From the NCBI RefSeq assembly GCF_012030425.1, contig NZ_JAAUVN010000003.1:806001-870000 (forward strand): a stretch of 64,000 nt of DNA, in the 5' to 3' direction. The notes beneath the pieces were generated by a model, which had not been told where the DNA came from, did not search any database, and was given only the letters and a program-made list of their open reading frames with translations. The stretch is from Sphingobacterium sp. B16(2022). Its GTDB lineage: Bacteria > Bacteroidota > Bacteroidia > Sphingobacteriales > Sphingobacteriaceae. Shown piece after piece: positions 2,818 through 36,683 of this stretch (positions are counted from its first letter, which is position 1; each line of letters begins with the position of its first letter). The position numbers and the translations under genes are program-made.

Positions 2818-3360
2818 TTATATCAAGTTATATTTCTCTTCCAATAATATGGCTAGTTCCATCGCATGATCAAGTTCACCATTAGCTTCCTTTTTCCATA
2901 AAGTATCAATAACAATTAACAAAAATTCCGTTTCCAGATCCGGATTTTTATATCCCAGTTCCTTAAAAGCCCGCACAATAATTGCCTGCACAGGTTTCAT
3001 AAATTGTTCATGCTGCTGTCTTGAAAAAGGATGATGGGAAAGACGTTCTTGTAATTTCCAGAAGATAGGCTCATCAGCGACCAGCTTACTAGGTAAATTG
3101 ATCATCTTACGTAAAAAGTCCTTCGAATCACGATAAGTCATCATACCTTTATGATGTGTCAGCACTTTCCGATAGCCCGCTTTAATAAGGTGCACCAACA
3201 AAGCATCCTTATTTCCGAAATGTTTAAAAATTAAAGCCTCAGACACACCTGCATTTTGAGCAATAGCTTTGGTAGAGGTATCTGCATAACCTTGTTCTGA
3301 GAACAAATTCAATGCCTCACGAACAATTTTCTCTTTTCTACTCAATACACTATCTTTCAT
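2818..3360 (-). CDS. TetR family transcriptional regulator
   Basis: A 180-aa regulator with an N-terminal TetR helix-turn-helix (EKIVREALNLFSEQGY, then TSTKAIAQNAGVSEALIFKHF) and a divergent C-terminal ligand domain. The frame is open 27 bases further upstream to a TTG, but that TTG lies inside the -7 promoter box (3385-3392). I therefore start at the ATG at 3360 (MKDSVLSRKEK), preceded by AAAAGGGAA. The next gene on the strand, the GH3 glycosidase, is 118 bp away. Ligand and targets cannot be read from the sequence. Confidence 0.87.
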   Translation of the reverse strand: MKDSVLSRKEKIVREALNLFSEQGYADTSTKAIAQNAGVSEALIFKHFGNKDALLVHLIKAGYRKVLTHHKGMMTYRDSKDFLRKMINLPSKLVADEPIFWKLQERLSHHPFSRQQHEQFMKPVQAIIVRAFKELGYKNPDLETEFLLIVIDTLWKKEANGELDHAMELAILLEEKYNLI

Positions 3361-3384: not shown

Positions 3385-3415
3385 CAAACTTAGATAAATT
3401 TGCGTTTATACCCAA
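3385..3415 (-). promoter_or_regulatory. Bacteroidota-type promoter of the TetR gene
   Basis: On the minus strand TTG, 19-20 nt, TAAGTTTG (-7 box at 3385-3392). The predicted start near 3380 gives a ~20-nt leader to the ATG at 3360. The 18 bases ending in the -7 box are identical to those upstream of pgi (see findings). Confidence 0.7.
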
Positions 3416-3619
3416 TTATAATCTTCCTAAATATAAAAGCAAATTATTTATTTCGTTCTTCATAATTGACACGCATCAATAGGGCGCAATTTTCATATCA
3501 CTCCTTTAAATATACTTATTCTTTTCTTTTCGAAAGACCATCATTTGTAACTTGAAAATAATATTATCAAGAGGTGACAAAAGTCCAGAAAACATAGCAC
3601 TTCATAGCTTTCAAATCAA

Positions 3620-32260: not shown

Positions 32261-33910
32261 TTATAAACGCCAAGCTTTATATTGATTTATCAAACCATTT
32301 GTCGACGAATCATGCGTCGTAATGATATCTTCTGACTCTAATTCTGGTAAAATTTGACCCGCAAGCTGCTTCCCTAATTCTACCCCCCATTGATCAAAAC
32401 TGAAGACATTCCAGATAATGCCCTGTACAAATATTTTATGCTCATAAAGTGCAACCAAAGTACCCAAAGAACGTGGTGTTACTTTTTTAAGCAAAATAGA
32501 GTTACTCGGTCTATTTCCTTCAAACACCTTAAATGCTTTCAGCTTTTCAATTTCTTCTTCCGATTTACCCGCTGCCTTTAGTTCAGCAACAACAACTTCC
32601 TCAGATTTTCCATTCATCAATGCTTCTGTTTGCGCAAAAAAATTAGAAAGTAACATCTGATGATGCTTGCCTATAGGGTTTAAGCTAATGGCAGGTGCAA
32701 TAAAATCACAAGGGATTAATTTAGTTCCTTGATGTATCAGTTGATAAAAAGCGTGCTGTCCATTTGTACCAGGCTCACCCCAGATAATTGGACCTGTTTG
32801 ATAATCCACAGCTTTACCGTTACGATCCACACACTTACCATTACTCTCCATATCTCCCTGTTGGAAATACGCCGCGAAACGATGTAAATATTGATCATAT
32901 GGTAAGATCGCGTGACTTTCTGCTTCAAAAAAGTTATTATACCAAATACCCAACAAAGCTAGAGTAACCGGAATATTCTCTTCAAAAGCTGCTGTTCTAA
33001 AATGCTCATCGGCCTCAAATGCGCCCGTTAATAATTCTTTGAAATGATCAAAACCAACAGCTAAGCTGATCGATAAACCGATCGCAGACCATAGGGAGTA
33101 ACGTCCACCAACCCAATCCCAGAATTGAAACATATTTTTAGTGTCGATACCAAATGCGGCAACAGCAGCGGTATTCGTGCTCAAAGCAGCAAAATGCTTC
33201 GCAACATCGGTCTGTTGTGCTCCACTTGTCAAGAACCAATCTCGAGCAGTATTCGCATTTGCCATCGTTTCCTGTGTTGTAAAAGTTTTTGATGCAATCA
33301 GGAATAAGGTTGTCTCTGGATCAAGGTTTTTAATAGCCTCGGCAATATGTGTTCCATCCACATTAGATACAAAATGCATATTTAAATGTGTGCGATAAGC
33401 CTTTAAAGCCTCCGTCACCATTACTGGACCTAAATCAGATCCTCCGATACCAACATTCACCACATCGGTAATGGTTTTTCCAGTATAGCCTTTCCATTCA
33501 CCAGATAGAATGCGGTTTGTGAATGACTCCATCTGTGCCAAAACAGCATTTACATCTTTCATGACGTCTTGACCATCAACAAATATTGCTTTTCCAGATT
33601 GATTGCGCAAAGCCGTATGCAATACCTGACGGCCTTCTGTTTCATTGATTTTCTCACCCTGAAACATTGCTTCTATGGCTTCGCTTAATTGGCACTCTTT
33701 TGCCAACTGGCGTAACAAAGCTAACGTCTCATCGTTCACTCTATTTTTTGAATAATCTAAGAGCAAATCATTAAATTCAATACTATATTTCTCAAATCTA
33801 AAATCATCTGCAGCAAATAAATCTTTCAAGCTATGCTCGTTTATACTAATATAATGATCGGCTAAATAGCGGTAAGCCGCTGTCTGAGTAAAATCTATTT
33901 TTGGTAACAT
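32261..33910 (-). CDS. pgi: Glucose-6-phosphate isomerase
   Basis: A 549-aa enzyme interconverting glucose 6-phosphate and fructose 6-phosphate. The sugar-phosphate loop is [13 protein letters not shown], and the two family signatures are [13 protein letters not shown] and [27 protein letters not shown] ends the active site. Length fits the large bacterial type. It lies convergent to pfkA, the next step of glycolysis, and has a promoter with the 18-bp core shared with the TetR gene. Confidence 0.98.
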
Positions 33911-33926: not shown

Positions 33927-33956
33927 CAAACTTAGATAAATTTGTTTTATTTACAA
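33927..33956 (-). promoter_or_regulatory. Promoter of pgi
   Basis: Minus strand TTG (33954-33956), 19 nt, TAAGTTTG (33927-33934). Leader ~12 nt. Confidence 0.78.
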
Positions 33957-34072
33957 TGTTAATTGTACCATATCTATAAACAAAGTTATCGATTTCTCCT
34001 CTTCCATTAAAAACTGTACTATTGAGGAAATATAAAAATTTATCCCGATCACTGAAGTTCATATCGCAGCTT

Positions 34073-35784: not shown

Positions 35785-35892
35785 GATTATTCAATATTTA
35801 TATAGGTTAAAGTTGACTCTCAATCGTTTAGAAAAGTGAACAGCAACCATTTTTTTCAAAAATACGGTAATCGTTGATATTTTACAGCATTT

Positions 35893-35919
35893 CCTAATAT
35901 TTCTTCTGGAAATATTAGG
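35893..35919. repeat. Perfect 11-bp inverted repeat in the dcd/PPTase divergent region
   Basis: CCTAATATTTC (35893-35903) and GAAATATTAGG (35909-35919), loop TTCTG. On the plus strand TATTAATTTTT follows, terminator-like, but no gene precedes it. Confidence 0.75.
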
Positions 35920-36030
35920 TATTAATTTTTATCATGCTTCATCAGGTCCTAGTAAGTTCATATCAAAAAATAAAGCTGAAAAACCGCTTATTTACAGACG
36001 AAGCTCCTTTTAAATGAAAACAAATTTAAC

Positions 36031-36038
36031 TAAGTTTG
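36031..36038 (+). promoter_or_regulatory. -7 box (TAAGTTTG) of the PPTase gene, leaderless
   Basis: Ends 3 nt before the ATG at 36042. The -33 position reads TTT instead of TTG. It excludes the in-frame TTG at 36036, which lies inside the box. Confidence 0.6.
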
Positions 36039-36041
36039 ATT

Positions 36042-36683
36042 ATGAGCTTAGTATATCTACGAGAATTGGATCAGCATACCAAATTTGCAATTTGGCGTAT
36101 TGAAGAAGATGAACAAACATTGTCTAATCAACTGCAATTAGACGCATTAGAAGAACAGAAACTCATCAGCCTATCCAATGGCAAACGTCGTTTACATTGG
36201 CTCGCCACACGCGTCCTTTTACGCACGTTATTAAACACGACTGCTTATATTGATTGTCCTTCTGATGCAAATGGAAAACCATACCTAGCTAATTTTCCGC
36301 AAAAAATATCACTCACTCATTCTTTTGATTATGCGGGAGCGATCATCAGTTCGGTGGGCGAGGTAGGTATTGATATGGAGCTTATCAAATCTAAAGTGGA
36401 GCGCATTGTACATAAATTCTTAAAAGAAGAAGAACTGGACTTTATCACCTCGGGCGAAAACCGTATAGCGCAGCTCTATGCTTGTTGGAGTGCTAAAGAG
36501 GCTGTGTATAAATTGCAGGGTAATAGTGGCGTCTCCTTTCTACATAATATGACCATTGCTCCTTTTCAATATCAGGATGAAGGAATTTTGAAATTACATT
36601 TAAAAAGTGAATATCACGATTGTCACTTCGATGTTCATTATGAGAAGTTCAATGCGTATTTACTAGCTTATGTGGTCGAATAA
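36042..36683 (+). CDS. 4'-phosphopantetheinyl transferase (Sfp-like)
   Basis: A 213-aa enzyme that attaches the phosphopantetheine arm of CoA to carrier proteins. The catalytic set is intact: VGIDMEL with D111 and E113, and WSAKEAVYK with E153 and K157. The size and pseudo-dimeric layout fit the Sfp/Gsp group rather than AcpS. No carrier-protein gene lies nearby, so its target (acyl carrier protein or a secondary-metabolite synthase) is open. The ATG at 36042 is chosen over the upstream TTG because of the promoter. Confidence 0.92.
   Translation: MSLVYLRELDQHTKFAIWRIEEDEQTLSNQLQLDALEEQKLISLSNGKRRLHWLATRVLLRTLLNTTAYIDCPSDANGKPYLANFPQKISLTHSFDYAGAIISSVGEVGIDMELIKSKVERIVHKFLKEEELDFITSGENRIAQLYACWSAKEAVYKLQGNSGVSFLHNMTIAPFQYQDEGILKLHLKSEYHDCHFDVHYEKFNAYLLAYVVE

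Follow-up and report, generated by a model that had tools for sequence, protein, structure and literature searches.

The 18-bp near-palindrome that precedes three unlinked genes in the window, the 64,000-nucleotide stretch of Sphingobacterium DNA analysed here, is, judging from sequence comparison, the gene-side end of a dispersed element of about 150 bp of the Sphingobacteriaceae. Probably this is a mobile element that inserts into −7 boxes, so that the gene behind it keeps its start site and receives a new promoter; we regard it as a MITE-like mobile promoter whose insertion site, the −7 box, is unusual. The dispersed element itself and its −7-box junctions are well supported by the alignments described below.

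The 18-mer occurs exactly at 3385-3402 and 33927-33944 (both minus strand) and with one mismatch at 36021-36038 (plus strand), and 14 of its 18 positions match its own reverse complement when read directly, all as a previous sequence-only reading of this DNA had stated; the genes behind the three sites, TetR_N, PGI and ACPS/4'-PPTase, are also those it had named. With up to three mismatches allowed, exactly these three matches were present in the window, against 0.20 expected, and none of 100 shuffles reached three. The 6.02-Mb genome (6,019,801 bases) contains 17 exact copies plus 11, 12, and 38 copies at one, two, and three mismatches, respectively, or 78 in total, a few near-palindromic places entering the counts on both strands; the reversed control gives 22. 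At up to one mismatch the numbers are 28 and 0, respectively, and for 25 of these 28 sites a sense ATG ORF of 60 aa or more begins 3-65 nt downstream, the three without such an ORF nearby being L009, L013, and L019. Based on this position at gene starts and the excess over the reversed control, the motif is neither scattered without regard to start sites nor as frequent as base composition predicts, the two outcomes that the sequence-only reading had set against its own proposal.

Conservation upstream of the 18-mer was first seen when the genome's own copies were aligned. Copies from several species reveal a unit of about 150 nt of the form TTTCCTCTATAAAA ... AATTATAATTG...CAAATTTATCTAAG, bounded on the gene side by TTTG, with TTTCCTCTATAAAATAATTC as the left end and CAAATTTATCTAAG, adjoining TTTG, as the right end; many copies are internally shortened. 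The median pairwise identity of whole copies is about 65%, and 16-17 end columns are nearly invariant, an invariance that is biased, as many of the compared loci were picked by an exact 18-mer match. Two copies upstream of different genes of genome G051 (L280 and L304) are 88% identical over 148 nt, while their flanks are at random level. A search of ten loci with Rfam gave no family in the element, the sole gathering-level match being a tRNA elsewhere in L012, and no conserved RNA fold was found in the element beyond a short terminal hairpin at the right end. Of the orthologous loci in named species, those of pheT (L066, L125, and L138) and serS (L076, L111, L115, and L131) differ strongly between species groups in what precedes the 18-mer, which would suit turnover of the left part and retention of the end, a picture that is biased by selection on the exact match. 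Since the pheT, serS, and DUF151 orthologue loci were fetched in this way, the invariance of the 18-mer there is no proof of selection.

To locate copies we used R1, a model built from the sequences of 18 copies. The copy upstream of the TetR-family regulator gene (2818-3360, minus strand, 180 aa, PF00440) spans 3385-3510 on the minus strand and is matched by R1 at 3385-3508 (model positions 28-149, E 3.4e-10), its left edge at 3510 being set by eye between TATA and TTTA, with AAGTATA as the left flank. The 18-mer at 3385-3402 forms its gene-side end, in which TAAG would come from the element and TTTG from the host promoter, and a putative −33 TTG is present in the sequence at 3413-3415 (minus), 20 nt from TAAGTTTG. 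The copy upstream of pgi (32261-33910, minus strand), which codes for a glucose-6-phosphate isomerase of 549 aa (PF00342), is located at 33927-34030 on the same strand, with the 18-mer (33927-33944) again at the gene-side end. It measures 104 nt including TTTG and is internally shortened, which is reflected in two R1 matches, at 33927-33979 (positions 97-149, E 3.3e-10) and 33982-34030 (positions 1-49, E 0.0013). Its left edge lies between TTTTTATA and TTTCCTC, both flanks match the empty orthologue in the relative G067, TATCTTTG, and the putative −33 TTG, likewise read from sequence, is found at 33954-33956 (minus), 19 nt from TAAGTTTG. The third copy, on the plus strand at 35907-36038, is degraded and matched by R1 only at 35953-36038 (positions 60-149, E 1.9e-4); the one-mismatch 18-mer at 36021-36038 is its gene-side end. 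Its left edge at approximately 35907 follows from comparison with the empty G067 orthologue (TAAATTTG). A start at 35890, where TTTCC gives exactly 149 nt, was considered and rejected, as the same comparison showed this stretch to be host flank. This copy precedes a 4'-phosphopantetheinyl transferase-like gene (36042-36683, plus strand, PF01648), the ATG of which is located only 3 nt past the motif, which predicts a leaderless mRNA. At 35857-35864 (minus), the window carries an empty −7 box, TATTTTTG, in front of the divergent dCTP-deaminase-like gene. After these three copies, the next R1 match in the window has an E value of 0.031.

The insertion site emerged from a comparison of 17 upstream loci, i.e., 13 loci together with those of pgi, serS, the PPTase, and the dCTP-deaminase-like gene. 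In G067, five of these were filled as in the other species (L001, L004, L012, L015, and L017), and L011 was unreadable. At 11 of the 17 loci, an element in one species faces a plain −7 box, TAHHTTTG, in a relative: in ten cases G000 carries the element and G067 the plain box, and the dCTP-deaminase-like locus, empty in both of these as seen in the window, holds an element in G054, G023, and G051. The 11 empty boxes start with TATA, TACA, TATA, TATC, TACA, TATA, TATC, TATC, TATC, TAAA, and TATT, respectively, and each empty TAHHTTTG corresponds to TAAGTTTG in the filled orthologue. At the ten loci that differ between G000 and G067, empty and filled orthologues have the ATG equally far from the box to within one base, and homology of the left flank reaches the junction at pgi, L014, the PPTase locus and, in G051, at L003; at L008 only about ten bases of the left flank agree by eye. 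The flanks thus indicate that TAHH stays on the left and TTTG on the right, with about 100-150 nt in between. In line with this, 25 of 36 copies, some of which are orthologues, have TA at positions −4 and −3 relative to the left end, compared to a background of 7.7%. Right-end 14-mers that lack a following NNNG continue with TTTA in 33 of 34 cases and with GCTC in one (eight genomes).

For serS and pgi, the upstream regions of 20 genomes of our choice were inspected in each case, serS matches being present in 91 genomes. Five serS upstreams were filled (G054, G023, G051, G065, and G073), 14 had TATCTTTG or TATATTTG, and one had neither, and for pgi three were filled, 13 had TATC/TATATTTG, three had TAAGTTTG without the 18-mer, and one had none of these. 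From this distribution, the direction of change at both genes was likely from empty to filled. The filled serS promoters of G065 and G073 have an upstream part unlike that of the group of G000, and perhaps the serS box was entered twice. The three pgi upstreams with TAAGTTTG and no 18-mer (G089, G012, and G015) are possibly decayed or divergent element copies. Several empty serS promoters share TTCTTATCTTTG before the −7 box, a stretch that lies outside the element. In G017 (G017:C1:1161021-1162290), the genome of which is called 99% complete, serS comes out as two pieces, the first of which contains four stop codons; this might stem from faulty sequencing or assembly or mark a decayed second copy.

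These comparisons bear on a simpler explanation, namely that point mutation, without any mobile element, has brought ordinary strong sigma-A promoters to one consensus. The right end indeed fits the TANNTTTG consensus, with TTG located 20 nt upstream of the box in 60 of the 74 named Sphingobacteriaceae sites, this class of box is enriched at gene starts, and a conserved stretch before the box is also shared by the element-free serS promoters. However, the copies have about 150 nt in common with a definite left end, at several loci the filled orthologue has some 100-150 nt more than the empty one, flanked by homology on both sides, and the 17, 11, 12, and 38 matches at zero to three mismatches, against 22 in all for the control, lack the rise that a degenerate consensus would give. 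Convergence is therefore very unlikely.

The junction found by these comparisons is consistent with the proposal of the sequence-only reading that the 18-mer is an extended promoter, which its position, its orientation, the TAAGTTTG −7 box, and the upstream TTG support, promoter function being what we infer from them. The 53 best-scoring R1 loci, orthologues included, comprised 45 with a sense ATG ORF within 70 nt, compared to 31/184 and 1126/6360 control loci (17-18%), and the remaining eight have an ORF of at least 40 aa within 190 nt by a looser test run without a control. In 264 kb of this species, TANNTTTG occurs 4.0 times per kb upstream of ORF starts versus 0.61 in the background, a 6.7-fold difference. 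Among the 28 own sites, 20 have a TTG 19-20 nt upstream of the box, and in six the 16 nt that precede the motif contain no TTG. In Flavobacterium johnsoniae, transcription starts 4 or 5 nt past the −7 box, according to the accessible text of PMC6847099. Six of the 28 own copies lie 3-6 nt before an ATG (window 36038-36044, L002, L008, L010, L012, and L014), the genes including those for the PPTase, a DUF4254 protein, and a PrmC-like protein. In G067, five of these six sites were found without the element, their spacing agreeing to within one base, and as the spacing is inherited from the host box, such genes should make leaderless or nearly leaderless mRNAs.

Every exact copy of the 18-mer ends in TAAGTTTG, which carries a G at −9. 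This goes against the rule for the F. johnsoniae −7 box, in which G is virtually absent at −9 and −10, as far as the available part of PMC6847099 describes it, and TAAGTTTG might consequently be a poor sigma-A box or one that needs a helper. The corresponding avoidance expected in the species studied here was looked for and not seen in a small sample, where 5 of 41 upstream boxes had a G at −9 versus 54 of 321 background boxes, so that the F. johnsoniae rule is not demonstrated in Sphingobacterium. Three of these five boxes are the window copies, the fourth ends in TTTATTAAGTTTG, and the fifth is unrelated. The hybrid box would thus be either tolerated or in need of help, and the sequence context suggests that it is likely an active promoter.

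A helper would fit a reading in which the 18-mer is recognised by a factor of its own, be it an activator, a repressor, or an alternative sigma factor, the element then being a mobile operator-promoter and the near palindrome CAAAYTTA-TAARTTTG a dimer site. The near-invariance of the 16-17 end columns compared to the approximately 65% median identity of whole copies would agree with this, as would the G at −9, unlike the sigma-A boxes of F. johnsoniae in the accessible portion of PMC6847099, and the patchy occurrence of the element among species with a near-bimodal copy number. On the other hand, the downstream genes are of diverse function (pheT, serS, pgi, ribH, LpxB, an aminotransferase, as well as regulators of the TetR, MerR, GntR, Rrf2, and ECF-sigma types), other genera show a drifting left half-site, and the invariance may reflect recognition of the end by a recombinase, in addition to many loci having been chosen by exact match. 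Such a regulon is, in our view, improbable, yet less so than convergence. The more specific suggestion that the window's own TetR protein binds the 18-mer, prompted by the copy in front of the TetR gene and by the near palindrome, hardly deserves any credence: an orthologue is present in all 93 Sphingobacterium genomes, including 33 with no detected element, and in G067 the promoter of the TetR orthologue is empty, with a plain TATATTTG.

The symmetry of the 18-mer had also led to the suggestion of a bidirectional promoter core, since the reverse strand carries TAAATTTG. In related genera, however, the left half carries changes that destroy the reverse −7 box (CAAT, CAAC, CAAG, and CGAA) and leave TAAGTTTG intact; of the 12 one-mismatch sites listed for G183, 10 show this. 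At 25 of the 28 own copies the gene start lies in the direction of TAAGTTTG. With the reverse box so often lost in relatives, a bidirectional core is scarcely plausible.

Under the preferred reading of a mobile promoter, the element would enter the −7 box of housekeeping promoters of the sigma-A-Bfr type between TAHH and TTTG. The inserted copy would bring a −33 TTG, a fixed spacer, and TAAG, and the host would contribute TTTG, the transcription start, and the leader; with the host TTTG and leader kept, the start site would be retained under the new promoter. A recombinase presumably moved the copies. More tentatively, the integration machinery may recognise the −7 box or an opened promoter, each jump exchanging the promoter and keeping the start. 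In one species after another, dozens of unrelated housekeeping and regulatory genes may in this way have come under a single shared module, perhaps read by a dedicated factor; we consider this possible rather than probable.

In several respects the element resembles a MITE. It is short (approximately 150 nt), multi-copy, and dispersed, with 10 to 49 R1 matches at E ≤ 0.01 in eight chosen genomes (24 in the genome of the window, 49 in G051, and 10-37 in the six others), and it has no transposase gene of its own: stop-free runs in 18 copies do not exceed 50 codons, and an element so short and rich in stops has too little room for one. The terminal inverted repeats are poor, CCTCTATAAAATAATT matching CTTAGATAAATTTGTT at about 10 of 16 positions by eye, and the junction, which reads TAHH, TTTC...CTAAG, and TTTG, is compatible with a TTT target duplication or with none. 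No left/right pair at kilobase distance, as expected for an autonomous relative, was found by eye among the listed R1 matches. The insertion between TAHH and TTTG without a clear duplication, together with the short hairpin possible at the right end, would also suit a non-autonomous relative of IS200/IS605 or REP elements that a Y1 transposase moves into single-stranded DNA, and the carriers G003, G062, G067, and G072 have one PF01797 match each. Yet PF01797 was found in just 21 of the 93 genomes, with none in the element-rich G000, G004, G023, G032, G038, G042, G051, G054, and G074, and the terminal structure is the sole conserved one, which makes a Y1 origin very improbable.

The literature searches made gave no description of this Sphingobacterium element. 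The Correia elements of Neisseria are, according to the available part of PMC10969869, similarly short, dispersed, promoter-bearing repeats that are mostly located immediately upstream of genes; they belong to another phylum and are set apart here by description, without sequence comparison. That part of PMC10969869 describes no insertion within a −10/−7 box in which half of the host's own box is used again; a closer parallel may nonetheless exist. BrickBuilt of Porphyromonas gingivalis is a MITE from the same phylum that is intergenic and contains promoter elements, but it consists of 23-nt tandem repeats, is located 49-591 nt from the nearest genes, and has promoters in both directions, as stated in the accessible text of PMC4596501. 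Compared by description, the Sphingobacterium element differs in that one end fuses to a −7 box and one gene is served. As promoter-bearing MITEs are thus known, the distinguishing point is the insertion inside a core promoter box. Compared to sigma-A-Bfr promoters (−33 TTTG/TTG and −7 TANNTTTG), the filled sites have the same boxes with similar spacing, and the empty sites are ordinary members of this class, but the filled sites differ by TAAG, with the G at −9 that is virtually absent in F. johnsoniae in the available text of PMC6847099, and by the fixed spacer part CAAATTTATC. If the mobile-promoter reading is true, the promoters of genes such as serS, pheT, and pgi have been replaced repeatedly by one element with single-base precision and with the start site unmoved. 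Such swapping would be a natural experiment on promoters and would be a means of rewiring networks in Bacteroidota, and it would perhaps also offer ready portable promoters for genera with few genetic tools.

The distribution of the element is uneven. With R1 at E ≤ 0.001 and stricter filters, it was found in 60 of 93 Sphingobacterium genomes and none was detected in 33, and the 18-mer with up to one mismatch was present in 61 of the 93, with counts from 0 to 38 that are close to bimodal. In a sample of the family, a match at this tolerance was present in 122 of 301 genomes, which belong to 13 of the 25 genera sampled, several genera being almost empty, and a full element copy was found in another genus (L043, genus g20). 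Among the matches listed from named records, the exact 18-mer occurs in Sphingobacterium and in some records of Pedobacter, Parapedobacter, Olivibacter, and Nubsella. Of the 74 exact Sphingobacteriaceae sites in 80 named stretches, 59 have a sense ATG ORF within 70 nt, compared to two of the seven exact sites in other records (L113 and L118, with one shared context), and these seven are taken for chance occurrences. One copy used as a query against phage and plasmid collections gave no match. A phage origin was considered and rejected, as 12 of the 18 exact hits in viral contigs share one recurring coding-like context and no viral-contig hit matches beyond the last 28 positions of the element.

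Motifs such as matS and parS are of a positional kind. A comparable function was considered, as exact copies cluster on some contigs, and rejected, since the sites sit at gene starts. On the complete chromosome of the same species (G004:C1), 12 to 16 of the 17 exact copies are located in the origin-proximal half, with chance probabilities from 0.07 to 0.0001, the count varying with the estimate of the origin (the GC-skew switch lies between about 3.57 and 3.88 Mb). With the sites at gene starts, the location of core genes is the simpler reading of this bias.
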